From Thiomicrorhabdus sp. (GTDB lineage: Bacteria > Pseudomonadota > Gammaproteobacteria > Thiomicrospirales > Thiomicrospiraceae), in the NCBI GenBank assembly GCA_015487015.1, contig WFQP01000007.1, positions 1 through 45,751 on the forward strand: a stretch of 45,751 nt of DNA, given 5' to 3'. Positions within the stretch are counted from its first letter, which is position 1; the number at the start of each line of letters is the position of its first letter. A program made the translations under genes and the position numbers. Below, piece after piece: positions 5,280 through 32,472 of this stretch. The notes beneath the pieces were generated by a model. It made no database searches. It saw nothing but the letters and a program-made list of their open reading frames with translations, and was not told the origin of the DNA.

Positions 5280-6339
5280 ACAAACGATTGTTGCAATTTC
5301 GGTTGCAGCGCTATTGTCAGGGTCGGCATTTGCGATGTCGGAAAATTCAGATGGTAATGCCAGTGTGGCCGCCAAAATTGATGGAAAATACGCCGCAAAC
5401 TATGCTGAAATTATTAAAAATGCCGATGGTAAGTATTTAGATAAATCGGTTATTGAAGCTATTTTGGGTGCGGACGCAACGCACGGACGTAACGGCATGG
5501 TGGGTAAACTTGATCCAGAAAATCCATACTCTTTTGAAGTGGATGACAGTATTGATGGTGGGAATCACGGGAATTCACAGTGTAAAATTCCAGAGGCATT
5601 TGTTGACGTACATGAAAGTGCTGCTGAAAATTACTTTAATGATGACACATTTGTCGCACGTGGTTTTGGTACGCCCATTGCCGAGTCTTCGTTAGAAAAA
5701 TGGAATATTTCGGTGGATGGTGACGGTAAAGGTTTGCCTGATCCTTCGGTAGGAATGACGATTGAAGAGGGGGCGAAAGTTTACGTTCAATTTTGTGCAA
5801 TGTGTCATGGGGAGTTTGGTGAAGGTGCCAAAGGCTACTTGGCGCTTGCCGTTGAAGAAGACTTAGTTACATCAGAGTTTACCGATCCTGCTCCTATGAA
5901 ATCGGTGGGTAACTATTGGCCGTATGCCGTCACGTTATTTGATTACATCCGTCGTACGATGCCTTTCTGGACGCCTAATGCACCTTATATTGGGGATGCG
6001 GGCTACTTGGGAATGACGGGCTATATTTTACAGTCTAACTATCTTGTAATGGACGATGAAGGTACGGAGCTGGATGATGATACGTTCTTTAACTCTGAAG
6101 TGTTAATGAAGGTTAATAAGTACATGCCAAACCAAGGAAATTGGTTTTGTGATCATCGCCCTATCATTCATAACGAGCGTTGCATGACGAACTGTCCAGA
6201 TGCACAAGTAGGTTGGGATGGTACAGGGGATGAGACTAAGTTCCGTCAAGCACGTAAATTACCGGATGGTACGCCTCAATACAATGTACCGCAACGGTTG
6301 CATGAGGATAAACCTGGGGTCGGCCATGCAGGAATGTAA
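5266..6339 (+). CDS. soxD: sulfane dehydrogenase cytochrome subunit SoxD
   Basis: This c-type cytochrome takes electrons from SoxC in the periplasm. I start it at the ATG at 5266, inside the end of soxC, because GGAGG lies 11 bases upstream and the product then opens with a clean Sec signal (MYNTKQTIVAISVAALLSG, cleaved near AFA). The protein has 357 residues. One haem motif is present, CAMCH at about 177-181, with a probable Met ligand in RRTMPF. The C-terminal region has a further cysteine pattern (CDHRP...RCMTNC) without a CxxCH. I therefore predict a mono-haem SoxD, whereas the Paracoccus protein is described as dihaem. A terminator follows the stop. Confidence 0.92.
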   Translation: MYNTKQTIVAISVAALLSGSAFAMSENSDGNASVAAKIDGKYAANYAEIIKNADGKYLDKSVIEAILGADATHGRNGMVGKLDPENPYSFEVDDSIDGGNHGNSQCKIPEAFVDVHESAAENYFNDDTFVARGFGTPIAESSLEKWNISVDGDGKGLPDPSVGMTIEEGAKVYVQFCAMCHGEFGEGAKGYLALAVEEDLVTSEFTDPAPMKSVGNYWPYAVTLFDYIRRTMPFWTPNAPYIGDAGYLGMTGYILQSNYLVMDDEGTELDDDTFFNSEVLMKVNKYMPNQGNWFCDHRPIIHNERCMTNCPDAQVGWDGTGDETKFRQARKLPDGTPQYNVPQRLHEDKPGVGHAGM

Positions 6340-6369
6340 TCATTCTGCTATGTAATGTTTAAGTTCAAT

Positions 6370-6394
6370 AACCCGCATTTAATGCGGGTTTTTT
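6370..6394 (+). terminator. Rho-independent terminator after soxD
   Basis: A perfect 9-bp stem (AACCCGCAT at 6370-6378 with ATGCGGGTT at 6382-6390), a 3-base loop and a TTTT tail lie 30 bases after the soxD stop. It should end the soxCD transcript before the moa genes. Confidence 0.88.
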
Positions 6395-6419
6395 GTTGAC
6401 GCCAAAATGATCCAAATAA

Positions 6420-6449
6420 TTGAATTCTAATGTGTTTTTAGGGTAAAAT
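6420..6449 (+). promoter_or_regulatory. candidate sigma70 promoter of moaA
   Basis: TTGAAT (6420-6425) and TAAAAT (6444-6449) are separated by 18 bp. The predicted leader to the moaA ATG is about 50 nt, too short for the molybdenum-cofactor riboswitch found upstream of some moa operons. Confidence 0.45.
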
Positions 6450-6508
6450 TCTTCCTTCTTTGTTGATTTTTTCAGGAAAGAATCTAATTTTCGGTAAGGC
6501 TAAGTAAC

Positions 6509-7510
6509 ATGCAAAAATCATTAATAGATCCATTTGGACGTAAAATTGAATATGTGCGTGTATCGGTGACGGATAAGTGTAATTATCGTTGCGATTACTG
6601 TATGCCTGAGCAAGGGGTTCACCCTGAAGGCCGCCATACAGAGTATCTTTCGTATGATGAGCTGGCGCGAATCATTAAAGCGTTTGTCAATTTGGGTGTG
6701 GCTAAAATTAGATTAACGGGCGGAGAGCCTTTAGTTCGTAAAAATTTAGATTCTTTTGTCGAAAAAATTCAACCATTTGAGGGCTTGGAAGATATCTCTT
6801 TATCGACCAATGCACATCACTTAGCGCGTGAAGCACTGGCTTTAAAAAAAGCCGGCGTGAGTCGAGTCAATGTCTCGATTGATTCGCTGAAACCCAAACG
6901 ATTTAACTTGATTACCCGTGGGGGTGATTTAACTAAAGTTCTAGCGGGTGTAGATAAAGCGTTAGAAGTGGGCCTTACTCCAGTTAAATTTAATATGGTG
7001 GTGATGAAAGGTACCAATGACGATGAAATTGAGGCTATGGTTGATTACGGTTTAGCGAAAGGAGTGGAGGTACGTTTTATTGAAACCATGCCTATTGGTG
7101 CCGCTGGAGTGAGCATGATGGATCAACATTACTCTGCCGCAAAGATTCTAAAACGCATTAAGCAACACGTAGGAACCGATTTAATTCCTTCAACGGGTAA
7201 GACGCATGATGGCCCGTCTAAAAATTTTACGATTGCGGGTACCAACACTCGTATTGGCGTTATCTCGGCGGTATCGCAACATTTTTGTGAGAGTTGTAAC
7301 CGTGTACGTTTGACGGCTAAAGGGGTGTTGGCGCTGTGTTTGGGTCAAGAAGATTCTGTGGACTTGCGAACCCCTTTACGTGCGGGTATTAGTGATGAAG
7401 CATTGGAAACGTTGATTAAAAAAGCGATTCTTAAAAAGCCAGAGCGTCACTTTTTTACTGAAAATGTGCATAATATTGAATTTAGACAGATGGTTGAATT
7501 GGGTGGATAA
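6509..7510 (+). CDS. moaA: GTP 3',8-cyclase
   Basis: MoaA is the radical-SAM enzyme that rearranges GTP in the first step of molybdopterin synthesis. The protein has 333 residues. The SAM cluster motif is CNYRCDYC at residues 24-31, followed by RLTGGEPLVRK. The C-terminal second cluster is represented by FCESCNRVRLTAKG and a third Cys in ALCLG. The conserved C-terminal Gly-Gly needed for activity is the last pair of residues. It begins an operon-like run with moaD (5-base gap) and moaE (4-base overlap). Its place directly after soxCD fits the cofactor need of SoxC. Confidence 0.96.
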   Translation: MQKSLIDPFGRKIEYVRVSVTDKCNYRCDYCMPEQGVHPEGRHTEYLSYDELARIIKAFVNLGVAKIRLTGGEPLVRKNLDSFVEKIQPFEGLEDISLSTNAHHLAREALALKKAGVSRVNVSIDSLKPKRFNLITRGGDLTKVLAGVDKALEVGLTPVKFNMVVMKGTNDDEIEAMVDYGLAKGVEVRFIETMPIGAAGVSMMDQHYSAAKILKRIKQHVGTDLIPSTGKTHDGPSKNFTIAGTNTRIGVISAVSQHFCESCNRVRLTAKGVLALCLGQEDSVDLRTPLRAGISDEALETLIKKAILKKPERHFFTENVHNIEFRQMVELGG

Positions 7511-7515
7511 GTTAA

Positions 7516-7773
7516 GTGGATAATGTGATTCACATTTTATATTTTGCAAGTTTCAGAGAGCAGCTCGGGCAAGCCGAAGAGAGGCTGCCCGCAAGTTATG
7601 CAACGGTATCTGAACTTCTGGCTGAGTTGGCTGAGCGTGGTGAATACTGGAAAACGGTATTGTTAGAGAATCAAAATTTACAAATTGCTGTTAATCATAA
7701 TGTTGCTTCACGTGAAACATCTCTTAAGGCTGGGGATGAAGTTGCCTTTTTCCCCCCCGTAACGGGAGGGTGA
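7516..7773 (+). CDS. moaD: molybdopterin synthase sulfur carrier subunit
   Basis: This 85-residue ubiquitin-like protein ends in PPVTGG. The C-terminal Gly-Gly is adenylated and then thiocarboxylated to carry the sulfur put into molybdopterin. I chose GTG at 7516; another in-frame GTG lies three codons on. The stop overlaps the moaE start (GTGA), which suggests translational coupling of the two synthase subunits. A run of seven C (7752-7758) encodes the Pro-Pro just before the functional tail, so slippage there would remove the Gly-Gly end. No moeB/thiF-type activating enzyme is in the window. Confidence 0.92.
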   Translation: MDNVIHILYFASFREQLGQAEERLPASYATVSELLAELAERGEYWKTVLLENQNLQIAVNHNVASRETSLKAGDEVAFFPPVTGG

Positions 7774-8249
7774 TTTTGGATTCAACATTAACCCCTTTTA
7801 TTAAAATTCAACAACACGACTTTGACTTAACAACGGAAGTGTTGGCTTTACGCCAAGGACATAAAAACATCGGTGCGGTTGTCTCGTTTGTAGGCACGGT
7901 TCGAGATATCAATGAAGGCGATGAGGTGACTGTTCTTGAATTAGAGCATTACCCGGGGATGACTGAAAAAGCACTTGAGAAAGTTCGTTTAGAGGCGCAT
8001 AAACGTTGGTCATTGGAGGCCAGCTTAATTATTCACCGTATTGGCTCGTTGCACCCAGAGGATCAGATTGTCCTAGTGGTGGCTGCCAGCCAGCATCGAG
8101 AAAATGCTTTTTTTGCAGCACAATTTATTATGGACAGTCTTAAAACCAATGCTCCTTTTTGGAAAAAGGAGACTCTGCCCAGTGGCGAAGTGCGTTGGGT
8201 AGACTCTCGCATCAGTGATTCTGAAGCCCAAAAACGTTGGAAAGTCTAA
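7770..8249 (+). CDS. moaE: molybdopterin synthase catalytic subunit
   Basis: MoaE accepts sulfur from thiocarboxylated MoaD and converts cyclic pyranopterin monophosphate to molybdopterin. The 159-residue protein shows the family landmarks: GAVVSFVGTVRD near residue 35, LELEHYPGMTEKAL, IIHRIGSLHPED, and the C-terminal APFWKKE with the active-site lysines. The start is GTG, overlapping the moaD stop by 4 bases; a TTG two codons on is possible. A strong hairpin with a T-tract follows, so transcription probably stops or is reduced before moeA. Confidence 0.95.
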   Translation: MILDSTLTPFIKIQQHDFDLTTEVLALRQGHKNIGAVVSFVGTVRDINEGDEVTVLELEHYPGMTEKALEKVRLEAHKRWSLEASLIIHRIGSLHPEDQIVLVVAASQHRENAFFAAQFIMDSLKTNAPFWKKETLPSGEVRWVDSRISDSEAQKRWKV

Positions 8250-8272
8250 TCTCTTAATCTCATTCTTTTTTT

Positions 8273-8303
8273 GTAATGACTCTGCGAGTCGTTACCCTTT
8301 TTT
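8273..8303 (+). terminator. Rho-independent terminator between moaE and moeA
   Basis: GTAATGACTC (8273-8282) pairs with GAGTCGTTAC (8286-8295) through 10 bp with one G-U pair and a 3-base loop. TTTTTT follows at 8298-8303. It lies in the 84-bp moaE-moeA gap, so it could end the moaADE transcript or attenuate expression of moeA-moaC. Confidence 0.8.
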
Positions 8304-8333
8304 CTTAATTTTAATTTGAGTACCCTATTTAAC

Positions 8334-9542
8334 ATGAAAACATTTGATGAAGCGTTAGATGCTTTATTGTCTAAAGCCGTTTTAACCACTCAAACAGAAG
8401 CGTTGCCTATTGAAAGTGCGCTAGGGCGTATTTTGGCACAGAATATTACATCGGTACTGAATGTTCCTCCTCATCATAATAGTATGATGGATGGCTATGC
8501 GGTGTGTGCCAGTGATGCAGAGGCGATAAAAGCCGGCGATGTCTTTAAAATAAGTCAGCGTATTGCGGCAGGTTCTATTGGACAGAGTTTAGAATCTGGC
8601 ACGGTGGCTCGAATCTTTACGGGTGCCGCGATGCCTGAAGGGGCTGACTCTGTCATTATGCAAGAGGAAGCGATTGAAATAGAGGGGGGGGTAAAATTTT
8701 CGAACCCCTCTTTTCAGCCAGCACAAAATGTACGCCATATAGGTGAAGATATTGCTGAAGGCGCGGTGGTGTTATCAAAAGGACATAAACTACGCGCACA
8801 GGATTTAGGCTTAATTGCTTCCATTGGCATTGCGCAAGTATTGGTTTTTCAACCACTGACCATTGCAACTTTTACCACAGGTGATGAACTATTAGAGCCT
8901 GGTGAGACGGCTGAAGTGGGTAAAATTTATAACGCCAATCGTTATATTTTAGCGGGCTTAATTCCTCGTTTAGGGTTTCAACTTATTGACTTAGGGCGTG
9001 TTGCGGATACGTTAGAGGCGACGGTTGAGGCACTGAAACAAGCGGCTTCGGTGGCGGATGTAGTCATTACCACGGGGGGAGTCTCTGTTGGCGATGAGGA
9101 TCATATTAAGTCTGCAATTGGGCAAGTGGGTCATTTGGATTTGTGGAAGGTAAAAATGAAACCTGGTAAGCCTCTTGCGTATGGTGAAGTGGCAGGTAAA
9201 CCTTTTATTGGTCTTCCAGGGAATCCCGTCTCAGCCTTTTCAACCTTTAATTTATTTGCTCGTCCTTTTTTATTGAAAATGCAGGGGCAACAATCCGTGC
9301 AATTACAGCCTCTTTGGCTAAAAGCTAATTTTAATTGGTCTAAAAAAGGCTTTAGACGGGATTTTGTACGGGCACAGCTTGAAAATAGAGGGCAAGAGAC
9401 TGTTGTGACTCTTTTTCCTAACCAAGGTTCTGGTGTGTTAACTTCCACTGTATGGGCTGATGGATTAGCGGTGATTCCAGAGGATAGTACGGTGTCACAG
9501 GGTGATTATGTGGCTTACTATCCCTTTAATGATATGAATTAA
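8334..9542 (+). CDS. moeA: molybdopterin molybdenumtransferase
   Basis: MoeA inserts molybdate into adenylated molybdopterin. The protein has 402 residues from the ATG at 8334; a TTG six codons upstream lacks a better ribosome site. Landmarks in order are [13 protein letters not shown] near residue 45, the MoaB/Mog-like domain with [12 protein letters not shown] near 245, [11 protein letters not shown], and [10 protein letters not shown] near 295. A beta-barrel domain IV completes it. An in-frame run of eight G (8684-8691) encodes Gly-Gly and is followed by TAAAATTTT, one of the recurring G-tract sites in this window. moaC follows 4 bases later. No mog/moaB gene is in the window. Confidence 0.95.
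8684..8691 (+). repeat. G8 tract in moeA
   Basis: Eight G encode Gly-Gly and are followed directly by TAAAATTTT, an example of the recurring G-tract plus A/T-tract sites. Confidence 0.9.
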
Positions 9543-14621: not shown

Positions 14622-15389
14622 CTAGATTAGTGTTGATATATATTTATATAACATAATAAAGCCCATGCATACCAATAGGGTAGCAAACCCTTTTTTTAAA
14701 TGGGCCTGTTTTATTTTTTTTCCGAGTTTATGCCCAAGCCAGCTGCCTAGAACGCCAAGGGAAGAGAAGAGCGCAATAATATGCCAATCAATAGTAATGC
14801 CTAGGCTATCTAATACGGGAAGGTAGCCTATAAATCCTGCAAAAGATTGAATGGTCACAATCACTAAGCTGGTACCAATCGCCAGTCGTATTGACAATCC
14901 CCCTAGTAAAATAAGTGCAGGAATGATTAAAAAACCTCCACCAACACCGACAATACCCGTGACTAAGCCAACCACAAATCCATCAACCACAATCTGGTGC
15001 ATGCCTCGTTCGGAGTGCTCTTTTTCTTCCCCTTTCAGTGTGATAGGCTCAAACATTAAGTAGGCCGCAATGAGTAATAAAATCGAAAAAACAAGCATTT
15101 GAACGGCATCACTAATAAAGTTGGCTGTCCAAGCTCCTGTTACAGCGCCTAGCATTCCTGGGAGTCCAAATAGCAGAACGGTTCGCCATTTTACTTGTTT
15201 GTGGTAAGCGTAAGAGAGCGCTGAGAATAAGCTGATTAGGCATACAATGATGAGTGAGCTGGCAATGGCCAGTTTGGTTTCTTGACCCACTAGGTAGGTT
15301 AGAATGGGAACAGTTAATATAGAGCCACCGGAACCAAGAAGTCCTAGGGTAACCCCTATTAAAATGGCACCAATCCAAGCTAAAATCAT
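14622..15389 (-). CDS. TSUP-family (TauE/SafE-like) membrane permease
   Basis: The protein has 255 residues with seven to eight hydrophobic helices and the two glycine-rich repeats of the family, [15 protein letters not shown] near residue 18 and [15 protein letters not shown] near 146. Characterised or proposed substrates include sulfite, sulfoacetate and sulfonates. In a sulfur oxidiser sulfite or thiosulfate movement would be attractive, but nothing in the sequence fixes the substrate. The start overlaps the trmA stop by 4 bases, so the two are co-transcribed. Confidence 0.88.
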
Positions 15390-23374: not shown

Positions 23375-25651
23375 TTGTCCCAATCATCTATTGTACAAGT
23401 GGCCGTTTCTGGTCCTTTTTTATCCCCATTGGACTATGTATACGTAGAATCAGAAGGCGTGCCAGTTGTCGGTGGTCGTGTTTGGGTGCCTTTTCGTAAT
23501 AAAAAAGTTGTGGGCTTGGTGATGTCGTTGGAAAACTCAACCAAGTTTGAGGTTGTGAAGCTAAAAAAAATAGATCAAGTGATTGATGCTGTTCCTCTGT
23601 TTACTGCCCAACAACTTAACTTATTTCAGTGGGCAAGCCAGTATTACCATGAACCGATTGGAGAGGTGGTGTCTGCAGTGCTGCCTAAGCGGTTACGAAT
23701 GGGAGAACCCGCCGAAGCAAAGGGCATGACACATTGGTCCTTGACTCTGTTAGGGGAGCAAGCATCGCAGGACGAGCTGCCTAAAAATGCATCACGGCAG
23801 CGAGCAGTATTTGAATTTTTTAAGCAAGCGAAGGTTTTAAATCAGCACTCTTTTTCAGCCACCAACCTATCTCAAGCACTTAAAAATTGGCAGCCTTCTG
23901 TTAAAAAGTTGCTTCAGATGGGCTGGCTCCAAGAGAGTGAAGCGCCTTGTTTAGCCCATTCGGTATATAAATCATCACCCAAGCATACTTTAAATGAGGC
24001 ACAACAAGTGGCTGTGGATACGGTGATTAATGAGTTACAGAGTACTTCTTCTGGTTTTTGTGCCTATTTACTTGAAGGCATTACCGGCAGTGGTAAAACT
24101 GAAGTCTATCTTGGGATGATTGAAGCCGCGATTGCTCAGGGTAAGCAGGTGTTGGTGTTGGTACCTGAAATTGGCTTAACGCCTCAAATGGTGAGCCGTT
24201 TTGAAGCGCAATTGTGCATCCCTGTGGCAAGTTTGCACTCAGGGTTAAACGATACCGAGCGGCACTGTGCATGGCATGTTATGCGAACGGGGCAGGCAAA
24301 GGTGTTATTGGGAACACGTTCAGCCGTATTTACACCGTTTAAAAATTTAGGGCTTTGCATTATTGATGAAGAGCATGACCTCTCCTATAAACAGCAAGAG
24401 GGGTTTCGTTACTCAGCAAGAGATATGATTGTAAAGCGGGCTTTTCAAGAGAAAGTTCCCGTTGTGTTGGGATCGGCTACGCCATCGTTAGAAAGTTTGC
24501 ATAATGTAAATGAGGGGCGCTATCAGCACTTAGAGTTAAAGCACCGTGCGGGTAATGCCTCTTTGCCCAGCTTAAAGCTACTGGATATTAGGGGGGAAAA
24601 AATTCAAGAAGGGGTGTCTCGCCCATTAAAAATTGCGATGCAGAGCTGTTTGGAAGAGGGGGGGCAAGTTTTACTGTTTTTAAATCGACGAGGGTTTGCT
24701 CCAATATTGATGTGTCATGAGTGTGGTTGGCAAGCCAGCTGCCCCAGTTGTGATGCCAATATGACGTTACACTCTGGTAAGGGGCATCATTACTTGCAGT
24801 GTCACCACTGCACTGAACAGATGCCCGAGCCAGAGTGTTGCCCTAGCTGTGGGCAGAGCGATGAGTTTATTAAAGTAGGACAAGGGACTGAGCGATTACA
24901 TGAAGCGATACAAGACTGGTTTCCGGATGCATCTGTTTTAAGAATAGATCGAGATACTACGCGTTTAAAAGGTCAAATGGCTGAATTAACAGGTAAGGCG
25001 CAGCGAGGTGAAGCGGATATTTTAATTGGCACTCAAATGTTGGCGAAAGGGCATCACTTTCCTAATGTAACCTTGGTGGGCATGCTTGATATTGACCAAG
25101 GTCTGTTCAGTGCGGACTATCGTGCACCTGAGCGAATGGCGCAACTCATTATGCAGGTTGCAGGACGGGCGGGTCGAGCTGAAAAAAAAGGTCAAGTATT
25201 GATTCAAACCCATCAGCCTGATCATCCTCTGTTTGCAACATTAATAACTCAAGGTTATGGTATTTTTGCACAAAGAGCACTTAAAGAGCGCATTGAAGCA
25301 CTGCTTCCTCCTTACTGTTATCAAATATTAATTCGTGCTGAAGCAAGCCACCCACAAGATGCAATGGTATTTTTACACTCTTTAAAATCAGGGTTGACAT
25401 TAAATTTACAAAAAATAAACTACGAAGTGGGTAAAATACAGAATGATAAAGATCAAATTGAGTTTTGGGGGCCAGTATCGGCACCTATGCACCGTCGTCA
25501 AGGGCGTTATCGTTTTCAGTTATTGATTCAGGCAACTCAGAGAAAGCGGTTGCATCAATTAATGTCTGAAATGGTTCCTTATATTTACAAAAGCCCTTTA
25601 TCGCGTAAAGTGCGCTGGAGCTTGGATGTGGATCCTCAGGAAATGATGTAA
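23375..25651 (+). CDS. priA: primosomal replication restart helicase PriA
   Basis: PriA recognises stalled or broken replication forks and reloads the replisome. I start it at TTG 23375 (758 aa, near the usual 730) because AGAGAG lies about 8 bases upstream and the conserved N-terminal DNA-binding domain begins just after, at VQVAVSGPF. The open frame runs back to a GTG at 23285, but that extension is unlike the family and contains a C8 tract. The helicase domain has GITGSGKTEVYL, DEEHDLSYKQQ and GTQMLAKGHHFPNV. The zinc-binding insertion holds CHECGW, CPSC, CHHC and CPSCGQ. Confidence 0.92.
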   Translation: MSQSSIVQVAVSGPFLSPLDYVYVESEGVPVVGGRVWVPFRNKKVVGLVMSLENSTKFEVVKLKKIDQVIDAVPLFTAQQLNLFQWASQYYHEPIGEVVSAVLPKRLRMGEPAEAKGMTHWSLTLLGEQASQDELPKNASRQRAVFEFFKQAKVLNQHSFSATNLSQALKNWQPSVKKLLQMGWLQESEAPCLAHSVYKSSPKHTLNEAQQVAVDTVINELQSTSSGFCAYLLEGITGSGKTEVYLGMIEAAIAQGKQVLVLVPEIGLTPQMVSRFEAQLCIPVASLHSGLNDTERHCAWHVMRTGQAKVLLGTRSAVFTPFKNLGLCIIDEEHDLSYKQQEGFRYSARDMIVKRAFQEKVPVVLGSATPSLESLHNVNEGRYQHLELKHRAGNASLPSLKLLDIRGEKIQEGVSRPLKIAMQSCLEEGGQVLLFLNRRGFAPILMCHECGWQASCPSCDANMTLHSGKGHHYLQCHHCTEQMPEPECCPSCGQSDEFIKVGQGTERLHEAIQDWFPDASVLRIDRDTTRLKGQMAELTGKAQRGEADILIGTQMLAKGHHFPNVTLVGMLDIDQGLFSADYRAPERMAQLIMQVAGRAGRAEKKGQVLIQTHQPDHPLFATLITQGYGIFAQRALKERIEALLPPYCYQILIRAEASHPQDAMVFLHSLKSGLTLNLQKINYEVGKIQNDKDQIEFWGPVSAPMHRRQGRYRFQLLIQATQRKRLHQLMSEMVPYIYKSPLSRKVRWSLDVDPQEMM

Positions 25652-25717
25652 ATTGTGTCTGGTATCCTTCTTTAAAATAAGATAAAGTACTTATTGATGA
25701 AGGGGGATGTTTTTTAA

Positions 25718-26095
25718 ATGAAAAAAAGAGTAAAAATGATGAATATAAAGTGGATGAGTTTGGTGGCAGCAATAACCGTTTTTTCAGCTGGGTGTAGTGA
25801 TTCAGAACAAGAGTCAACGAATAAACAAGCGTCTGGTGCAGTTGTACCTATGGAAGTTGAAGTTGTGGAAGTAAAAGAAGTGATTGAGATAACACAAACG
25901 CCAGAACAAAAAGCGGCTCTTAAAAAAGTATTAAGTTCGGTTGAAGGAATTCCTCCTGAAAAGTTGGACTCTGAAGTAAAAGGGTTAATTGCAAAAATAT
26001 CTGAAAATTCAGAAATGACTGAAGAAGAAGCAGCAAAGCTAGAACAAGATTTAAAAAGAGTTTTTCAAAAAATTGAAGCTGAGCGTGTTCAATAA
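25718..26095 (+). CDS. small putative lipoprotein, Glu/Lys-rich
   Basis: I do not recognise this 125-residue protein. It has a basic N terminus, a hydrophobic stretch and then VFSAGCSDSE, a plausible though imperfect lipobox with Cys near residue 27. The mature part is dominated by Val/Glu and then by Glu/Lys-rich helix (about residues 60-125), so a soluble periplasmic helical domain on a lipid anchor is likely. Three possible ATG starts lie at 25718, 25736 and 25739; GGGGG lies about 11 bases before the first. It converges with the tetrahaem cytochrome gene across a long shared hairpin. Confidence 0.6.
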   Translation: MKKRVKMMNIKWMSLVAAITVFSAGCSDSEQESTNKQASGAVVPMEVEVVEVKEVIEITQTPEQKAALKKVLSSVEGIPPEKLDSEVKGLIAKISENSEMTEEEAAKLEQDLKRVFQKIEAERVQ

Positions 26096-26132
26096 TATTT
26101 TTAGTTAGTAGCTATTTATTTTAAAATGGTTA

Positions 26133-26176
26133 CCACAACAAATTAAGCCCCTTTTCAGGGGTTTAATTTGTTGTGG
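26133..26176. terminator. 19-bp-stem hairpin between convergent genes
   Basis: Bases 26133-26151 and 26158-26176 are complementary over 19 positions with a single G-U pair and a 6-base loop (TTTTCA). It lies between the stops of the lipoprotein gene and the tetrahaem cytochrome gene, so it probably serves both transcripts. The A/T-rich outer stem can supply a U-rich tail in either direction. Confidence 0.75.
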
Positions 26177-26190
26177 AGAATCGTTAGGGG

Positions 26191-26778
26191 TTATCGTCTT
26201 CCACCCATTCCTCCACTACGACCACCGCGACCACTGCTAGTGGGTTCATTAGGCCAATCGCTCAGGCCGTCACCATCTGTATCAATACCTTGACCAGCAC
26301 CATGGCAAGCCTGGCAATTTCGTTGTAAAAATAGAGGGTTACGCTCCATGTGTACATTGTTACCTCTCATAGGTCTTCCTGTCACACGCCAAGCAGGGTG
26401 ACATTGTAAGCAATCTCTAAAGGGTTCAACGATCTTGAACTCTCCCTGTAAAGGTATTCCTGTTTCTGGAAGCATTAAGTGGCATGAAAAACAATTGTAG
26501 GCTTGTCCTTCATTTGTCGCTCCTCTTGCATCGGGTGCTTTTGATCTAGAGATGGGAGGGATAGTGGTACCTATTAAGAGGTGATGGCGATCAGGGTTCC
26601 TTAGTTTAAGGTTGAGCCCTAATGTAGGAAATCGGTTAAGGTTGTAGTGGCAGTTTCTACATTGTGGTGCAGTGGGTGCCCCTACAAAAATTTTCATACC
26701 TCGGGCATTGGCTGTCGTGCTGAGACTGAAGAGAGAGAGTATAAATGTGATGAGTAGGCTGATCTGAATGTATTTCAT
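26191..26778 (-). CDS. secreted tetrahaem cytochrome c with Gly/Arg-rich tail
   Basis: The 195-residue protein has a Sec signal cleaved near TTANA and four CxxCH haem sites at about residues 40, 96, 123 and 155. NPDRHH at 61-66 offers distal His ligands. A calcium-loop-like DTDGDGLSD follows near 167 and the protein ends in a Gly/Arg tail (GRGGRSGGMGGRR). The order and neighbouring residues of the four haem sites match the first half of the octahaem protein at 29043-30824, so they are paralogous modules. I know no characterised match. A periplasmic or surface electron carrier is inferred. The basic, flexible tail is odd for a cytochrome and may bind an acidic partner or polymer. Confidence 0.8.
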   Translation of the reverse strand: MKYIQISLLITFILSLFSLSTTANARGMKIFVGAPTAPQCRNCHYNLNRFPTLGLNLKLRNPDRHHLLIGTTIPPISRSKAPDARGATNEGQAYNCFSCHLMLPETGIPLQGEFKIVEPFRDCLQCHPAWRVTGRPMRGNNVHMERNPLFLQRNCQACHGAGQGIDTDGDGLSDWPNEPTSSGRGGRSGGMGGRR

Positions 26779-27145
26779 ATAAAAAATTCCTTAAAATTCT
26801 TTTAAGTTAGCTCAATTCATTAGATGACAATATTAAGTAGACTGGCTTGTTATTTAGTGGGCTTATTATTTTTCGAGAAAATTTAATGTCACTAATGATT
26901 GAGGAAGTATTAAGGAACGTATCATAACGTATTTTCTTTAGATATACCATAACCTATGTATGAAGCAAGTGTTTAATGTGCTTTAATAAGCTTATCTTCT
27001 TATTAATTGATTGATGATATTTTTTGTAGAGGAGAAGGAGTAAAGTACCGTGTCATAAGCGGAGGATTGCTTTTTTAGGAATAAAAAAAGGCAAAATAAA
27101 TAATTATTTTGCCTTCTTTAGTATATTTAAATTTTTTTTAAATAA
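26779..27145. other. 367-bp intergenic stretch with one terminator
   Basis: This AT-rich stretch separates the tetrahaem cytochrome and the PEP-CTERM gene. It holds the terminator at 27083-27113 and a short perfect inverted repeat (CTTAAAA/TTTTAAG, 26790-26806) just upstream of the tetrahaem start. I see no open frame or convincing promoter, although the gap before the tetrahaem gene is long enough for its own promoter. Confidence 0.5.
27083..27113 (-). terminator. Rho-independent terminator of the PEP-CTERM gene
   Basis: GGCAAAATAA (27090-27099) pairs with TTATTTTGCC (27104-27113) over a 4-base loop. On the minus strand the stem is followed by a run of seven T (27089-27083). It lies 33 bp beyond the PEP-CTERM stop. 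Confidence 0.85.
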
Positions 27146-27808
27146 TTAAGCGTTTGTTGTTTTTTGACGACGATAAGCCATAAAACCAACCAACCCTAAG
27201 CCACCTAGCATTAGAGCGTAAGTTGATGGCTCTGGAACAGCAGAGACTGTGTCGGTATATGTATATGTTAGGTCATCTAACTCAATGATATCTGCGGGCT
27301 GTCCAGTGAGAGCTTGTAAGGGGCCAGGACCCACTTGGGTTAGTGTGGCATAAGAGATTCCTTCGGCATAAGTAAAACCAAAAGAGTTATCACCTATTCT
27401 ATCTTGTTCAATTGCCACAGTGCTAGCAATAGCATTACCGCTAGTATCAAAGGCATCGAGTGTCCAAGCATTTACGGAGCTTCCTAAAGTGAATGAGAAT
27501 TCACTAACGCTAATAGCATTGTCAAAAGAAAAAGTGAGGCTGGTAAAACCAACTGAACCATTTGCTAGGTAGAGATCAGACGGAATGTTGCCCAGATTAG
27601 TAAAATAGAAATTCGCTGGGTTACCACTAGGATCGCTTCCATTAAATGTAACGTCTTCAATGGTTAATGAATTAAATGCATTAGGATCTGTTGCAGATCC
27701 ACTTCCTAGGGGTTGATCGTTAAATGTAATTGTTGTTTCAAGTGCGTGTGCTGAAAAGGTTGCGGCACTTAATAGTGTGGCGATAAGAATAGTTTTATAG
27801 TGTTTCAT
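27146..27808 (-). CDS. PEP-CTERM-sorted secreted protein
   Basis: The 220-residue protein has a Sec signal (cleaved near SAHA) and ends with a textbook PEP-CTERM sorting signal: VPEPST, a hydrophobic helix and the basic end YRRQKTTNA. Such proteins are recognised by exosortase and usually end up in or on an exopolysaccharide matrix. The middle is Thr/Ser/Asn-rich, beta-strand-like and free of cysteine, as in many PEP-CTERM adhesin-like proteins. No exosortase or polysaccharide cluster is visible here. It sits between two multihaem cytochrome genes and a prolyl isomerase gene. A G7/C7 tract lies in its upstream region (27851-27857). Confidence 0.88.
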   Translation of the reverse strand: MKHYKTILIATLLSAATFSAHALETTITFNDQPLGSGSATDPNAFNSLTIEDVTFNGSDPSGNPANFYFTNLGNIPSDLYLANGSVGFTSLTFSFDNAISVSEFSFTLGSSVNAWTLDAFDTSGNAIASTVAIEQDRIGDNSFGFTYAEGISYATLTQVGPGPLQALTGQPADIIELDDLTYTYTDTVSAVPEPSTYALMLGGLGLVGFMAYRRQKTTNA

Positions 27809-27880
27809 TATGTTTAGTACTCCGAATATTTTTTTTGCCAGCTAAGGTCTCCCCCCCTTACTTTTAGGCTGACATGTTTT

Positions 27881-27904
27881 TAAGCTCAGCGTAATGTGAG
27901 CTTA
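27881..27904. repeat. 8-bp inverted repeat upstream of the PEP-CTERM gene
   Basis: TAAGCTCA (27881-27888) and TGAGCTTA (27897-27904) are perfect inverted repeats with an 8-base gap, midway between the prolyl isomerase and PEP-CTERM genes. No T-tract follows on either strand, so an operator is as likely as a terminator. Confidence 0.4.
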
Positions 27905-27946
27905 TAGCGTCATTATACTTATTTTAGTGCGGTCGATGATAGTTTT

Positions 27947-28915
27947 TTATTGCGATGTTGTATTTTTAGGAAGAAATATTTCAATATCAGCCTCTTCTCT
28001 TAATTGTTTAAGGTGAGCGGCAATGTTGTTTACTTTTGTTTTTTCCTTCATTCCTCGGGCTAAAAAGTTTTTTATTCTTTTATAAGAAATGGGTTTGCCC
28101 TTTTCTTGAATTTCAACAATTTTTAAAATGTGGTAGCCTTCCTCCGTTTTTATGATGTCGCTGACAGAGCCCTCGCTTAGGCTAAATGCCACTTCATCAA
28201 AGGCTTTGGGCATGTAGCCTTTCTCAATAAAGCTTAAGTTTGCATCTTGCTTGGTGTTTTCATCTTCTGAGTACTTTTGGGATACTTCTTTGAAGCTTTT
28301 TCCGCTGTTTAGCTCTTTTTGGGCGGCGAGAATATCCTCTTTTTTAGTGGTAAATACATGTAGAACGTGTCTCTCACCTTTCTGAGAAAGAAAATTTTGC
28401 TTTCCTTTTTCATAACGGGCTTTTACGGCTTCTTCTGAAGGCATGGGGTCTGCTAGGTCATGTGCTTTAAGGTACTCACGAAATAGAATTTGGCTTTTGA
28501 TGCTTTTATCGCTGGGCACTGTTTGATTATTTTTTATGGCTTTCTCTTTAAACAGAGTAATTTTTTCATCCAAATTATCAACCGCGTGTTTTTGGCTTGC
28601 TAGAACAAGAAGAGTTGTGTCTATGTATTCTTGTAAAAGACCTTGTCTAAGGTTGTTAATAAGGCTTTCTGTCGGTTGCTGGCCTTTTGAATTGAATTGT
28701 TTGTATTTTTTTAGTTTATGTTCTACTTGTGGCTTTAATTGATAGTCGTAGATCGGTTGCCCATTAACGCGTGCTAACACTACTCTGGATTCTTCTTGTG
28801 TGTTTACCTTAGGAGTATCCTTGGGGGAGGTCTCACTTGTTGCAAAGGAGTGTAACGGGAGGGTTGTGCTGGCAATGACCAGTGTTGTGGTTAAAATCCA
28901 TTTATATGGTTTCAT
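27947..28915 (-). CDS. PpiC-type (parvulin) peptidyl-prolyl isomerase, exported
   Basis: The 322-residue protein has a Sec signal (cleaved near SFATS), a SurA/PrsA-like N-terminal helical chaperone segment beginning LARVNGQPIYDYQL, and a parvulin domain at about residues 180-275 with RHVLHVFTTKKEDI, FKEVSQKYSED and FSLSEGSVSDIIKTEEGYHILKI. Parvulins of this kind help fold exported proteins. The lack of a membrane anchor suggests a soluble periplasmic or outer-facing protein. Its place between an octahaem cytochrome and a PEP-CTERM protein makes one of those a likely client. The resemblance to EpsD-type isomerases of exopolysaccharide loci is noted but not decisive. Confidence 0.87.
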   Translation of the reverse strand: MKPYKWILTTTLVIASTTLPLHSFATSETSPKDTPKVNTQEESRVVLARVNGQPIYDYQLKPQVEHKLKKYKQFNSKGQQPTESLINNLRQGLLQEYIDTTLLVLASQKHAVDNLDEKITLFKEKAIKNNQTVPSDKSIKSQILFREYLKAHDLADPMPSEEAVKARYEKGKQNFLSQKGERHVLHVFTTKKEDILAAQKELNSGKSFKEVSQKYSEDENTKQDANLSFIEKGYMPKAFDEVAFSLSEGSVSDIIKTEEGYHILKIVEIQEKGKPISYKRIKNFLARGMKEKTKVNNIAAHLKQLREEADIEIFLPKNTTSQ

Positions 28916-28962
28916 AAAATTTCATCTTCCTTTTAGGTTAAATATCATTATTTGAGCTATTA

Positions 28963-28998
28963 AAAAAGCGGAAGCCACGAGAGTGAGTTCCGCTTTTT
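28963..28998 (-). terminator. Rho-independent terminator of the octahaem cytochrome gene
   Basis: AAAAAGCGGAA (28963-28973) pairs with TTCCGCTTTTT (28988-28998) over a 14-base loop. On the minus strand the stem ends in a T-run, 45 bp after the octahaem stop. The downstream genes therefore need read-through or their own promoters. Confidence 0.8.
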
Positions 28999-29042
28999 AT
29001 TTAGCTACTTATAAGCACAATGGTACTTATAAGGTTTTTACA

Positions 29043-30824
29043 TTAATACTTCGTTAAAGGTATTACTTTAGTTCCGTAAAGGTTCGTCATAGTGACACTT
29101 TCAGGGATACTGTCAAAGTGAACAAGAACTAAACCGTCTTTCCATAAATAGGATGATACAGGTGCGTTACCATCTTGATCAACAAGCTTATAGGTTAAAC
29201 CGTTTACAGTCTCCATAAAGTTTTTACCAAGTATAACGACTAGTCCACCATAAGGAGTAAAGACAAATGCTTGTTGAACAGCAATTGATTTCTTAACCAT
29301 TAATCCTAGTGGGTTAGAGACCTGATCATGTTTTTTCAATGATACTTGATAGAAGTTTGAAGTCAGTGTTGCAGGAACAGTGAACTCAAGTTTAGCTCTA
29401 TCTTGGTAACTAGGCTCAATAACAATAACATTATTGTCTTTGTCAGTAATGACTACTTCTGAAGACCAAGTTGTTGTAACGAGATCAATCATGGCATTGC
29501 CTTGATCATCAAATACATTTGTTCCATCAGGGTTCAGTACAGGCTTATATTCTAAGCCAGAGTTAACCATATTCATTCCCGTAATGGTAATGAGTACTTC
29601 TTCGCCTTCTGAAATTGAGTCGACACTTAATGTATTGATTGTTGGAACAAGTGCTTTACTTACATCCATTCGTGCTAGATCTTCATCTCCAATAACAACA
29701 CCTTGGTTATCAACACCTAGGTAATCTCTAGGATTAACCCACTCACCATTGTCGTTAAGAACTGTTTTATTGTTACCGTGACAACCCCAGCAGTTTTTCT
29801 GATTACCGATGTGACCATAGTATGGTTCTTCAGCACCAGCTGTGACTCCATCACCAACGTTATCAAATTCGATGTTATGAAGCGTAGTTCTATCATGACA
29901 ACGTTGACAGATACGGATTGCGTTCCCGTCTTTTTGAATACCTTGATCAGTAAACTCTAGTTTATGACACCATGCACAACGATCATCATCAAAGAAACCA
30001 GTATTATGATGGTTTTGCGCATTTGTTAGAACTGGTGCGTTGAACGTACTGCCATCAGGTAGGTTAACAATTTGCATTGTTCCGCCTTCATCGCCAGTCG
30101 TTGCAGAAGAACCCTCTGCTGTATTGTGACAGAAATTACAGTTACCTGGTTCAGTACCAGCATGGTTTTCTTGAGAGTCATCACCATTTGGTTTTTTACT
30201 ACGCCAAGGTGTGATCATGCTGTGAGGGTAGTCTGGGATTACTACAGGAACAGTCTCTCCTGCGTTATCAGGATCAGGCTTTTTACCTCTTAATTCATCT
30301 ACGTCAATACCACGAACTAATCCACCGTGACAACGGAAACAAAAACCTGTTTGTGCTAGGTCAGTGGCATGGTGAACGGTAAGCGGGCCTGCATCTCTTG
30401 AGTGGCAGTTTAAGCAGTTACGGTAGTTAAAGTAAATAACATCCGATAGGATAGCGGTTTCGATATCTACGCCTTGCGTGACCACTTTATGGCAGTTTAA
30501 GCAACCAAAGTGCGTATCGGTTACACCATCTTTATTCGCATCACGATAAGGAGGAAATTCTGGTTTACCATCAATTTCGGTATAAAGTGACAAATGGTGT
30601 CTATCAGGGTTGTAACCTGGCTTAACAGGTGCGCCACTTAGTGGTTCATCACCCCTAACAGAGGCGTGGTGACATGCCTTACAAAGAGAGGCATCAAAGT
30701 TTGAAAAAGAGGTATCAGGAATACCTAAGTTTTGATTGACCGGCGGCGGCGGTATGGCCGCCGATGCCATGGAGCTCATGCCTAATATAAAGGCAAAAGC
30801 GATTAAATGTTTTAATATTTTCAT
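29043..30824 (-). CDS. secreted octahaem cytochrome c with C-terminal Ig-like (IPT/TIG-type) repeats
   Basis: The 593-residue protein has a Sec signal (cleaved near SMASA) and eight CxxCH sites at about residues 48, 108, 137, 162, 229, 283, 306 and 345. Candidate distal ligands include NPDRHH (72-77), VHHATD, YPHSM, ENHAG, QNHHNTG, TLHNIE and YGHIGN, enough for bis-His coordination throughout. From about 370 to the end there is no Cys. This part looks like two beta-sandwich repeats of the IPT/TIG kind, beginning VPTINTLSVDSISEGEEVLITITG and again around FVFTPYGGLVVILGKNF. The first four haem sites match the tetrahaem neighbour. AAGGGA precedes the ATG. An extracellular or cell-surface electron carrier is inferred; I recognise no characterised homologue. 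Confidence 0.82.
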   Translation of the reverse strand: MKILKHLIAFAFILGMSSMASAAIPPPPVNQNLGIPDTSFSNFDASLCKACHHASVRGDEPLSGAPVKPGYNPDRHHLSLYTEIDGKPEFPPYRDANKDGVTDTHFGCLNCHKVVTQGVDIETAILSDVIYFNYRNCLNCHSRDAGPLTVHHATDLAQTGFCFRCHGGLVRGIDVDELRGKKPDPDNAGETVPVVIPDYPHSMITPWRSKKPNGDDSQENHAGTEPGNCNFCHNTAEGSSATTGDEGGTMQIVNLPDGSTFNAPVLTNAQNHHNTGFFDDDRCAWCHKLEFTDQGIQKDGNAIRICQRCHDRTTLHNIEFDNVGDGVTAGAEEPYYGHIGNQKNCWGCHGNNKTVLNDNGEWVNPRDYLGVDNQGVVIGDEDLARMDVSKALVPTINTLSVDSISEGEEVLITITGMNMVNSGLEYKPVLNPDGTNVFDDQGNAMIDLVTTTWSSEVVITDKDNNVIVIEPSYQDRAKLEFTVPATLTSNFYQVSLKKHDQVSNPLGLMVKKSIAVQQAFVFTPYGGLVVILGKNFMETVNGLTYKLVDQDGNAPVSSYLWKDGLVLVHFDSIPESVTMTNLYGTKVIPLTKY

Positions 30825-31140
30825 TTTATAATCCCTTTTAAAATAAAGTTGTTTTAAAAATATTGCTAAGTAAGTTCTAAATGTTTTTAGAACGGGTGTT
30901 AATGGATATTCGTTTTTTGGTTAAAGCCCCCTTCCCCGGTGGGTTGTATTTAAAGTCGAACACCTATTTTTACGCAGGTTCTTTATTCACGAGGTTACGC
31001 AATTAGGCGTAAAAAAATAACAAAGTACCATGCGCACTTAATTGTACTTAATTTATAATTAAATGACCACTATTTGTTTAAGTATTTTTGCTAAACATAG
31101 TTTTTTATTTTTTAGGGAAAAACTTCATTTAAATAAGTTA
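30825..31140 (-). promoter_or_regulatory. leader region of the octahaem gene with inverted repeats
   Basis: Upstream of the octahaem start lie a perfect 8-bp hairpin with a 4-base loop (GTTCTAAA/TTTAGAAC, 30874-30893), a locally G-rich block on the coding strand (about 30926-30943), and a 9-bp inverted repeat, TTTTTACGC at 30967-30975 with GCGTAAAAA at 31007-31015. A weak promoter match (TTAAAC and TATAAA, 18-bp spacer) lies further upstream near 31047-31080. I could not match it to a known riboswitch, including c-di-GMP types. Confidence 0.35.
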
Positions 31141-31183
31141 TAAGCATATAAAAAAAGCTGTACTTGTGGTCGTCTATTTTTCT

Positions 31184-31211
31184 ATAACCACATGGTATCT
31201 CATGTGGTTAT
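31184..31211. repeat. 11-bp perfect inverted repeat
   Basis: ATAACCACATG (31184-31194) and CATGTGGTTAT (31201-31211) flank a 6-base loop. Neither side has a clear T-tract. It lies 10 bp before the short orphan frame and could be an operator, a transcript end or a trace of a lost mobile element. Confidence 0.45.
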
Positions 31212-31220
31212 CCTAGGGCA

Positions 31221-31349
31221 GTGCCTAAAAGTATTGTATTAAAGGAGTTGGATCAACCACCTAAATATTTACAACGTTTAACTCGGTTACAAAAACAACA
31301 ATATCAAGACCCAAGTGCTTTATTGAAAATACAAAGCTTAGACTTGTAG
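31221..31349 (+). other. short orphan reading frame, possible gene remnant
   Basis: A 42-codon frame runs from GTG (31221) to TAG (31349). The product is Leu/Gln/Lys-rich (for example LQRLTRLQKQQYQ) with codon use like a real gene, yet it lacks a ribosome site and I recognise no family. It may be the end of a lost gene. The rest of 31141-31527 holds AT-rich DNA and an inverted AATACCTAT/ATAGGTATT pair (31474-31519) beyond the bioC stop. Confidence 0.25.
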
Positions 31350-31527
31350 CTAAAGGTAAAATTATATGAAGTTACTGTTGAGTAGGAGATAAAGAGTTAA
31401 TAAAGGGGCTTTTTGTTGATATTAAAACTCAGAATAAAAGGCTATAGGACCTCTGCTGCGACCATAATATTTTAATACCTATTTTTTTAGTTTGTAATGG
31501 ATATCTAGTGATAGGTATTTAGTTGGT

Positions 31528-32472
31528 TTATTTTTTTAATTTAGTTTGTTTAGAAAAGGCCTCTAACGAAATTTCAACATACCCAGTCTTATTACGATTT
31601 GGCCCTTTCATGTGTTCGGGGGCCGCCCATGCGTGACCGTGTATCACTTCGTAAGTGGCAGGAATTTTAGTGTTTTGGCGAAAGGTTTCGTAGGCGGTTA
31701 GCATCGCTTGAAAACGTGTTTTTCCCATGAGTCCTTGCTTGCGTTGTTGGTTGGCGTTGGTTGCACCAATAGCTTTTAGGTCTTTGAGTACGCCCATGGG
31801 TTGGTCGTAGGTGAGGGTAAAGAGTTCAACATCCATTACGGGTTGCCCAAATCCATTACGAATTAGGGCATCGCCAATATCATGCATGTCTATAAATTGA
31901 TTTACGTGTTCTTGTTCTGGGTCAGCTTGCTTCCATGCTTGGCGCAGTTCTTTTAAGGTGTCGGGGCCAAAGGTGGTGAACATCAGTAACCCCTCTGGTC
32001 GCAGTACGCGTCTAAACTCTTGAAAAACTGCATCGAGGTCGTCACACCACTGCAACATTAGGTTGCTGGTAATGAGGTCGATGCTTTGATTAGCAAAAGG
32101 CAGTTGATAGGCATCGGCGTTAATTGCGGTGGCGGCCGTTTTGCAAAGGACTTTTGTGCCAAGCCAAGGAAAACGAGCAGTTTGCAGGCGAGGTTGCGCT
32201 TGTTGCAACATAGAGATTGATAGATCGATGGCAAAAGTTTTGGCATGAGGATAGCGTGCAATGAGTTTTTCGGTTAAAAACCCTGTACCAGCTCCTACAT
32301 CTAAAATAGTTTGCGTATTAAGCGTGGTCAGTTCAAGGCGTTCATCAATTCGCTCGGCTACAATTTTTTGTAATACAGCGGCCTCTTCATAGCTGGGTGC
32401 GGCATGGCTAAAGTGCTGTTTAATGTGTTGACGGTTGATTTGTGCCTGTTGAGGCGCGTGAGTTTCAGTCAT
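31528..32472 (-). CDS. bioC: malonyl-ACP O-methyltransferase
   Basis: BioC methylates malonyl-ACP so that it can prime fatty-acid synthesis towards pimelate, the first dedicated step of biotin synthesis. The 314-residue protein begins with INRQHIKQHFSHAAPSYEEAAVLQ, a BioC N-terminal signature, followed by SAM motif I (ILDVGAGTGFLTEKLI) near residue 60 and the DLITSNLMLQWCDDLD segment. It is the last gene of bioB-F-H-C and overlaps bioH by 8 bases. The C-terminal 50 residues are somewhat longer than in E. coli BioC. Confidence 0.93.
   Translation of the reverse strand: MTETHAPQQAQINRQHIKQHFSHAAPSYEEAAVLQKIVAERIDERLELTTLNTQTILDVGAGTGFLTEKLIARYPHAKTFAIDLSISMLQQAQPRLQTARFPWLGTKVLCKTAATAINADAYQLPFANQSIDLITSNLMLQWCDDLDAVFQEFRRVLRPEGLLMFTTFGPDTLKELRQAWKQADPEQEHVNQFIDMHDIGDALIRNGFGQPVMDVELFTLTYDQPMGVLKDLKAIGATNANQQRKQGLMGKTRFQAMLTAYETFRQNTKIPATYEVIHGHAWAAPEHMKGPNRNKTGYVEISLEAFSKQTKLKK

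Follow-up and report, generated by a model that had tools for sequence, protein, structure and literature searches.

An OmcZ-like cytochrome gene set without an OzpA gene in Thiomicrorhabdus: a candidate extracellular conductor for electron uptake

The OmcZ protein of Geobacter sulfurreducens (GSU2076) is predicted at full length to consist of a signal peptide, an octahaem domain and tandem immunoglobulin-like (Ig) domains; the OmcZ filament lacks the Ig part, and OzpA cleaves the C-terminal part (as described in PMC9473688). The genes for OmcZ, OzpA and a prolyl isomerase are presented as nanowire assembly genes (PMC11208441), OmcZ homologues are reported from Geobacter, anaerobic methanotrophic (ANME) archaea, Methanoperedens and Borgs (PMC9012536, PMC10874420, PMC11208441), and operons of the OmcZ type are described as widespread in Bacteria and Archaea (PMC9473688). 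Here we describe a related set of four genes, all on the minus strand within positions 26191..30824 of a 45,751-nucleotide stretch of Thiomicrorhabdus sp. DNA (contig WFQP01000007.1 of assembly GCA_015487015.1; the whole stretch is called the window). The set encodes an OmcZ-like octahaem cytochrome, an exported prolyl isomerase of the PpiC type, a PEP-CTERM protein and a tetrahaem cytochrome, and it is a real, conserved and recognisable system of the OmcZ kind. We give somewhat better than even credence to its being an OzpA-less, OmcZ-type extracellular conductor for electron uptake, embedded in a matrix, in Thiomicrorhabdus of the vent type.

A second described system comes from the same genus. 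"Candidatus Thiomicrorhabdus electrophagus" (ISEC-1), which was enriched on a cathode at a vent, is reported to have a 30-gene cluster that includes eight cytochromes c (seven of them with 3–11 haems), Ccm and Ccs genes, a beta-barrel and 6-blade propellers, and to be a microaerobe with a cbb3 oxidase as its sole terminal enzyme (PMC9751133). Electrosynthetic growth is reported for a relative, and the cluster is described as limited to one vent clade (PMC13293256). The main texts of these two papers mention neither OmcZ nor nanowires. OmcZ is listed elsewhere among markers of sulfide oxidation coupled to iron(III) reduction, in a figure whose legend also names Gammaproteobacteria (PMC12545173), so that, as far as that figure goes, the occurrence of OmcZ in sulfur oxidisers is no novelty in itself. 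In the open-licence literature OmcZ was not found tied to Thiomicrorhabdus (one review mentions both, unconnected), and a prior report elsewhere is possible.

The octahaem cytochrome and OmcZ

The octahaem cytochrome (29043..30824, minus strand; 593 aa, 8 CXXCH motifs) is laid out as a precursor with a signal peptide at about residues 1–23 (by eye), an octahaem domain at about 24–350, a linker, and tandem Ig-like domains at about 389–593. When compared by phmmer with the sequences of solved structures, it matches 8d9m (473 aa) at 3e-15 and 7lq5 (258 aa) at 2e-11, and nothing else at E ≤ 1; matching stretches lie in the N-terminus (PPPPVNQ-LGI-DT) and the haem domain, with a weak one in the first Ig domain. 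Both entries are titled "Cytochrome c" only, and 8d9m, whose sequence equals that of 7lq5 in the aligned stretches, is presumably an OmcZ entry. The 7lq5 structure is identified as OmcZ in PMC11208441. The first-pass annotation, a reading of the window made without database searches, recognised no named system here, and that statement gives way to these matches.

All eight CXXCH motifs and eight further His (H76, 77, 151, 152, 272, 273, 316 and 338) are invariant in an alignment of 27 homologues, which leaves aside L048, L054 and L061, with long or cut open reading frames (ORFs), and the cut copy L050:3-1181 (L numbers denote loci and G numbers genomes, G000 being the window's own). Eight CXXCH and eight further His are the count required by eight bis-His haems. 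The further His align with His of OmcZ, with haem 5 ambiguous, where a single OmcZ motif is used twice. From its sequence, the octahaem protein is assigned as an OmcZ homologue, with all eight haems predicted to be bis-His by His count.

The likeness to OmcZ of Geobacter (7lq5, 8d9m) thus extends over the order of signal, octahaem and tandem Ig domains, the N-terminal motif, and eight haem sites with eight aligned distal His. The differences are of length (473 aa in the 8d9m chain, 593 aa here), of one haem site, since the CX14CH motif reported for Geobacter OmcZ (PMC11208441) is a plain CXXCH in the window protein, and of setting: the window locus has no OzpA gene, has genes for a PEP-CTERM protein and a half-OmcZ, and lies in a sulfur oxidiser. 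Pfam domains over their cut-offs are generic, and just over, on both cytochromes: MtrC/MtrF-like (32.8 bits, cut-off 30) and Cytochrome_C7 (27.3, cut-off 24.8) on the octahaem protein, and Cytochrome_C554 (21.5, cut-off 20.8) on the tetrahaem protein. A TIG match of the octahaem protein is weak (0.0035) and under the Pfam cut-off.

An Ig-like end had been noted in the first-pass annotation, and the AlphaFold2 model agrees, with two beta-sandwich domains at about 389–593 (block means of the predicted local distance difference test, pLDDT, 76–95). A fold search returned no OmcZ among the 50 matches listed, which run through the Ig-like part. The linker from the last haem His to the first Ig proline is 44 residues long in the window protein; the linker between haem 8 and the first Ig domain is 29–47 residues in the six Thiomicrorhabdus proteins vs. 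16–29 in 21 others. Compared pairwise, these six share on average 63% identity over the haem part, 45% over the Ig part and 37% over the linker. The first-pass suggestion that the Ig-like end could anchor the protein or join subunits is disfavoured, because this end matches the part of OmcZ that is absent from the filament and removed by OzpA (as described in PMC9473688); the Ig-like end is more likely a propeptide than a permanent anchor.

Conservation of the gene set and the missing OzpA gene

An OmcZ-like gene was found in 5 of 58 genomes searched, all from the window's genus and making up 5 of its 32 congeners, own genome included. A wider draw of the class gave an OmcZ-like match in 7 of 369 genomes: the own genome, four with many matches, and two with weak ones. 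The four (G237, with matches at G237:C14:74501-81569, and copies in G110, G246 and G347) have 5 to 7 OmcZ-like matches per genome, some in tandem and some with their halves apart in longer frames. Two conserved peptides (GNCNFCH and NCWGCHG) were also scanned for in species genomes, which gave 28 loci: 23 from outside the genus and 5 from named Thiomicrorhabdus metagenome-assembled genomes (MAGs), these 5 being the same loci as those of the congeners. With two peptides alone scanned for, the 28 are a sample.

The grouping of the four genes holds across the genus: octahaem, PpiC, PEP-CTERM and tetrahaem genes lie within about 6.5 kb in all six Thiomicrorhabdus loci, two of which belong to G001. 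Because the haem motifs and His are invariant in 27 homologues and this set recurs in each congeneric OmcZ locus, the observation is not due to chance. L015 and L016, the latter with two PEP-CTERM genes, keep the window's gene order, and L017, L018 and L019 depart from it; two bio genes separate the tetrahaem from the octahaem gene in L018. The two cassette copies of G001, L019 (G001:C115) and L015 (G001:C231), differ in gene order, and the OmcZ of the second copy is 57% identical to the window's.

Loci outside the genus show what is missing. A subtilase gene directly follows OmcZ, and is itself followed by a PpiC gene, in 11 of the 23, the subtilases being 48–85% identical to that of L039; a PpiC gene is near OmcZ in 12 of the 23 (split over two ORFs in one), as it is in all six Thiomicrorhabdus loci. 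The label OzpA-like is given to these subtilases for their position and class, not from comparison with an OzpA sequence. A profile built from one locus subtilase, with finds checked by BLAST, found no subtilase in any of the six Thiomicrorhabdus loci, and none in 12 of the 23 outside loci; several of the latter are second copies, the other locus of the same genome having a subtilase, and the absence is uninformative for L047 and L048 because both end soon after the OmcZ gene. The Thiomicrorhabdus sets resemble the OmcZ-OzpA-prolyl isomerase cluster of Geobacter, Methanoperedens and Borgs in the OmcZ homologue and the exported parvulin, and differ from it in the absence of OzpA and the addition of PEP-CTERM, tetrahaem and lipoprotein-like genes.

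In a tree, Thiomicrorhabdus OmcZ forms one clade (100/100) adjoining Gammaproteobacterial OmcZ that include those of loci with OzpA; under midpoint rooting, to which a long-branch warning applies, it is sister to 12 sequences, 8 of them with an OzpA-like gene. Loss of OzpA in Thiomicrorhabdus would be the simpler reading. Two peculiarities among the homologues may be recorded beside the tree. OmcZ-like octahaem domains lie in very long frames at L061:1826-8695 (2289 aa) and L048:2623-7107 (1494 aa), possibly as fusions with large N-terminal parts; and a MAG called Polarisedimenticolaceae (Acidobacteriota; L042, L046, L061) has OmcZ near the Gammaproteobacterial ones (L042 and L046 in the tree), perhaps through misbinning or mislabelling.

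The prolyl isomerase (27947..28915, minus strand; 322 aa) is an exported parvulin of the PpiC/SurA type (Pfam Rotamase 1.2e-15, SurA_N_3 2.3e-6) and is likely a folding helper. Help with folding or assembly was already suggested for it in the first-pass annotation, and the suggestion fits the published OmcZ-OzpA-prolyl isomerase cluster, as described in PMC11208441.

The tetrahaem cytochrome (26191..26778, minus strand; 195 aa, 4 CXXCH), with a Gly/Arg(/Met) tail, is kin to one half of OmcZ (haems 1–4). An OmcZ profile finds its gene in the own genome at 1.2e-20 (model positions 47–164), the tetrahaem and octahaem profiles pick up each other's members, and the tetrahaem motif order (CXXCH, HH, CXXCH, CXXCH, H[HM], CXXCH) is that of OmcZ haems 1–4. 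When all CXXCH are masked, a match to the equally masked OmcZ profile (positions 60–159) persists for 6 of 10 tetrahaem proteins, with E-values from 1.2e-7 to 4.1e-11, that of the window at 8.2e-8; that of L039 matches weakly (0.0017), those of L055, L056 and L057 do not match, and none of 200 shuffled control sequences reaches E 1. Small half-OmcZ-like proteins are encoded near OmcZ in 4 of the 23 outside loci (the same L039, L055, L056 and L057); 4-haem proteins of L053 (862 and 622 aa) match the tetrahaem profile weakly (1e-4) and are excluded from the counts. In 5 of the 10 tetrahaem proteins, including the window's, Met takes the place of the second His in the second pair. Met as the distal ligand would make a His/Met haem of raised potential, and one haem of the tetrahaem protein is probably of this kind. 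A structure model of this protein had a pLDDT of 44 and was discarded.

Matrix proteins, an electron-uptake-type cluster and the genomic setting

The third product of the set (27146..27808, minus strand; 220 aa) is a secreted protein of the PEP-CTERM, or exosortase-substrate, type. It shares with the matrix proteins of PEP-CTERM/exosortase systems a C-terminal PEP-transmembrane-Arg sorting signal over the Pfam cut-off (PF07589, 5.7e-9), and departs from those systems in that its best NCBIfam subfamily, FxDxF, scores 44.9 bits, under the cut-off of 50, and in that exosortase was not found in the 85%-complete own genome. Co-occurrence was examined among the 32 congeners, in 25 for PEP-CTERM, 27 for exosortase and all 32 for cytochrome assembly. 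PEP-CTERM proteins occur in all five OmcZ-carrying genomes (9–14 each) vs. 1 of 20 OmcZ-lacking ones (G027, with 5; Fisher 1.1e-4, uncorrected for ancestry). Exosortase (PF09721) was found in just 2 of the 5 (G012 and G028) vs. 1 of 22 others (again G027; Fisher 0.08), so the link is with the PEP-CTERM proteins. The exosortase of the own genome would be missing, diverged or unassembled.

The PEP-CTERM gene could be a fortuitous passenger outside the electron-transfer system, which we regard as possible though doubtful. The 9–14 PEP-CTERM genes of the OmcZ-carrying genomes are scattered over contigs, and in the outside loci weak PEP-CTERM-type matches never fall between OmcZ and its partner genes, as a passenger would allow. 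A PEP-CTERM gene is present, however, in all six Thiomicrorhabdus OmcZ loci (7 copies), including the second copy in G001 and the reordered loci. Four of the 23 outside loci (L039, L041, L046 and L056) moreover encode, at a distance of about 3.5 to 5.3 kb from OmcZ, proteins whose sorting tail is of the VPLPA type, a related signal; an NCBIfam scan of two of these proteins put one narrowly above the cut-off and the other narrowly below it.

A cluster on another contig of the own genome, C117, matches the published electron-uptake cluster in most parts, the identification being by composition and genus. CcmA, CcmB, CcmE, CcmI and a DsbE/CcmG-type protein are over NCBIfam cut-offs there, and CcmC and CcmF came from a search with the assembly-factor family PF01578. 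Also encoded on C117 are multihaem cytochromes with 5 haems (one), 4 haems (one) and 3 haems (three), three propellers of the NHL type, and a second PpiC (29.5% identical to the window's over 122 aa). A further C117 protein, of 600 aa, to which neither Pfam nor NCBIfam gives a match, is a candidate for the barrel of the cluster. L127 (G000:C117) and L132 are the loci of the uptake-type cluster in the own genome. The resemblance to the MHCR/electron-uptake cluster (ISEC-1, SREC-4) lies in the shared genus and the similar cluster on C117; the difference is that the cassette lies outside that cluster, on another contig, between priA and bioC.

PF01578 was searched for in the 32 congeners and the surroundings of 15 CcmF-type matches were examined. 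The family also matches 9 of 14 control genomes, so its presence alone is uninformative, and CcmF identity and neighbours are what count. CcmF is 88–94% identical to that of G000 in the other four OmcZ-carrying genomes (94% in G012) vs. 47–50% in 10 OmcZ-lacking carriers. The stretches fetched from these 10 gave no match to the cluster cytochromes, propellers, barrel candidate or PpiC, and hold only one 4-haem and one 2-haem protein (the 2-haem protein alone in L142). No full match of the CcmF type came from the other 17 OmcZ-lacking congeners, several of them incomplete drafts; a partial match to the assembly-factor family in one of them, G006, lies at the end of a contig and was left unclassed. 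All component types of C117 are present in G028, and in G001 and G017 as far as the stretches and contig ends reach. By the Ccm marker, uptake-type cluster and cassette occur together in all five OmcZ-carrying genomes vs. none of the 27 OmcZ-lacking ones, uncorrected for ancestry; if visible cytochromes are required, four of the five have the cluster. The first-pass annotation held a surface electron-transfer or matrix-conductivity system to be outside the standard picture of a sulfur oxidiser. The genes are there, as it said, but the surprise is lessened, because a multihaem uptake cluster and electrosynthetic Thiomicrorhabdus are described in the papers cited above (PMC9751133, PMC13293256) and a similar cluster lies in the own genome.

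Other markers were tried. The MtrB/PioB porin (PF11854) was found in none of 10 genomes, all five OmcZ-carrying ones included, and a conduit of the MtrCAB type was rejected on this absence. PF14537 also matched none of 10 genomes although multihaem proteins are present, and is uninformative as a multihaem marker; a CXXCH pattern at the DNA level (288 places in the own genome, 123 in a control) served for a look only.

A probable fifth member of the set lies at its downstream end, where a convergent gene (25718..26095, plus strand) encodes a small lipoprotein-like protein of 125 aa with a lipobox-like FSAGC (by eye). It is found convergent at the same end in 5 of the 6 Thiomicrorhabdus loci (not in L016), and weak homologues are convergent after the isomerase gene in L056 (1.1e-6), L046 (5.2e-4) and L049 (7.9e-4). 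A terminator-like hairpin (26148..26161, both strands) separates it from the tetrahaem gene, by a pattern match only, which gave 8 such hairpins in the region vs. 4.4 expected. The gaps between octahaem, PpiC, PEP-CTERM and tetrahaem genes are 127, 138 and 367 bases.

The set is flanked by bioC upstream and priA downstream, names that were read from translations. These two genes are adjacent (with no more than about 140 bases between them) in four OmcZ-lacking congeners (L065, L066, L067 and L070), and other congeners have different genes between them; the priA-bioC gap (window 25651-31528) is a variable site in the genus. GC content at third codon positions is 0.28–0.36 in the cassette genes vs. 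0.40–0.52 in six flanking genes. The empty site and the lower third-position GC would fit insertion of the cassette, with loss in other congeners as the alternative; a plasmid search gave no match. Further off in the window are genes that fit a sulfur oxidiser: a sulfite-oxidase-type molybdoenzyme with molybdenum-cofactor genes at 3924-9542, and a TauE-type sulfite exporter at 14622-15389.

Proposed function and alternatives

The four exported proteins described in the first-pass annotation are borne out in their coordinates, ORFs, CXXCH counts and Pfam matches to PpiC and PEP-CTERM, and its view of a surface electron-transfer system is the best reading. The name OmcZ, the relation to the OzpA cluster, the half-OmcZ, the fifth, convergent gene and the tie to electron uptake go beyond it.

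On the reading that we prefer, an OzpA-less conductor for electron uptake, the octahaem protein would be exported, loaded with haem by the Ccm system and folded with the help of the parvulin, and would then assemble outside the cell into a haem-stacked filament, as Geobacter OmcZ does. Because OzpA is missing, the Ig-like C-terminus, the counterpart of the part removed from OmcZ, would either be retained or be released by a different protease that cuts in the long linker. The tetrahaem half-OmcZ, with its probable His/Met haem, might serve as an adaptor or end cap between filament and cell, the weakest of these steps. The filament, in a matrix rich in PEP-CTERM proteins, would pass electrons drawn from sulfide rock or other solids on to the uptake-type cluster, itself of presumed function. 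The fullest form of this proposal is more tentative: in electroautotrophic vent Thiomicrorhabdus, OzpA-independent OmcZ-type filaments in a PEP-CTERM matrix might draw electrons in, with the Ig domains cut in another way or kept as matrix tethers, and with the half-OmcZ and its His/Met haem joining or capping the filament at the uptake conduit.

Several points weigh against electron uptake through such a filament. OzpA is described as required for OmcZ assembly in Geobacter, and a profile of ten OzpA-like proteins gave no ortholog-level match in G000 (1.4e-4), G001 (1.9e-7) or G012 (none). OzpA acting in trans was considered and rejected: the subtilases of G000 are remote, and the stronger matches in G017 and G028 are not linked to OmcZ, because OmcZ-lacking G003 (1.1e-46) and G020 (1.4e-39) score comparably to or better than the best match in G017 (1.2e-44, in a 916-aa frame). 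The haem part of the AlphaFold2 model, mostly below a pLDDT of 50, is too poor for comparison with 7lq5, and filament and conductivity are proposals from genes alone. Exosortase was not found in G000, G001 or G017 (85, 79 and 94% complete). Neither the 11-haem cytochrome nor a proven beta-barrel of the published cluster was seen in G000, where C117 ends; published 11-haem quantitative PCR primers have no match within 4 mismatches in six electron-uptake loci, and the 11-haem gene may lie beyond the contig end. The contig of G012 stops after the Ccm genes, its uptake cytochromes unseen. The links of OmcZ with the uptake cluster and with PEP-CTERM proteins may also reflect the shared ancestry of one clade.

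The octahaem protein could instead be an OmcZ homologue that no longer polymerises, its Ig domains staying in place and the protein taking part, as a monomer, in redox reactions at the surface or in the matrix, or storing electrons beside the uptake cluster. The absence of an OzpA gene from all six loci, the missing ortholog-level matches in G000, G001 and G012, and linkers of 29–47 residues vs. 16–29 in the 21 other homologues speak for such a protein; the retention of 8 CXXCH, 8 distal-type His, the prolyl isomerase and the half-OmcZ speaks against it. The greater divergence of the Ig part than of the haem part (45% vs. 63% identity) likewise suits a removable part, without proving it, and we consider loss of polymerisation unlikely, if a serious contender.

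An improbable alternative is that the same conductor works outward and, at low oxygen, disposes of electrons onto iron(III), other minerals or partner cells. OmcZ of Geobacter and Methanoperedens is tied in published accounts to electrodes as acceptors, which would favour this direction, but the gene set co-occurs with a cluster that matches the published electron-uptake cluster in most parts, and the published Thiomicrorhabdus of this type was cathode-enriched, ISEC-1 being, by the account of PMC9751133, a microaerobe with cbb3 as its only terminal enzyme. The reading as a periplasmic multihaem reductase of a familiar kind (for nitrite, tetrathionate or hydroxylamine), the outcome that would have undone the first-pass interpretation, is favoured only by the octahaem count and the sulfur-oxidising host and can be dismissed as very nearly negligible, given that OmcZ alone among solved structures matches at E ≤ 1, that the NCBIfam scan gave no cytochrome model, reductase or other, over its cut-off, and that the distal His candidates are as many as the haems, leaving no obvious open catalytic haem.

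It has been proposed that electrosynthetic Thiomicrorhabdus are primary producers sustained by electric discharge from vent rock, and the published pathway is the envelope cytochrome cluster. The cassette is a specific and testable candidate for the carrier of electrons from rock to cell. If uptake through an OmcZ-type filament is true, an OmcZ-type conductor would be at work in an oxygen-respiring, electron-consuming lithotroph. The absence of OzpA makes these loci a natural variant for testing how OmcZ polymerisation is released.

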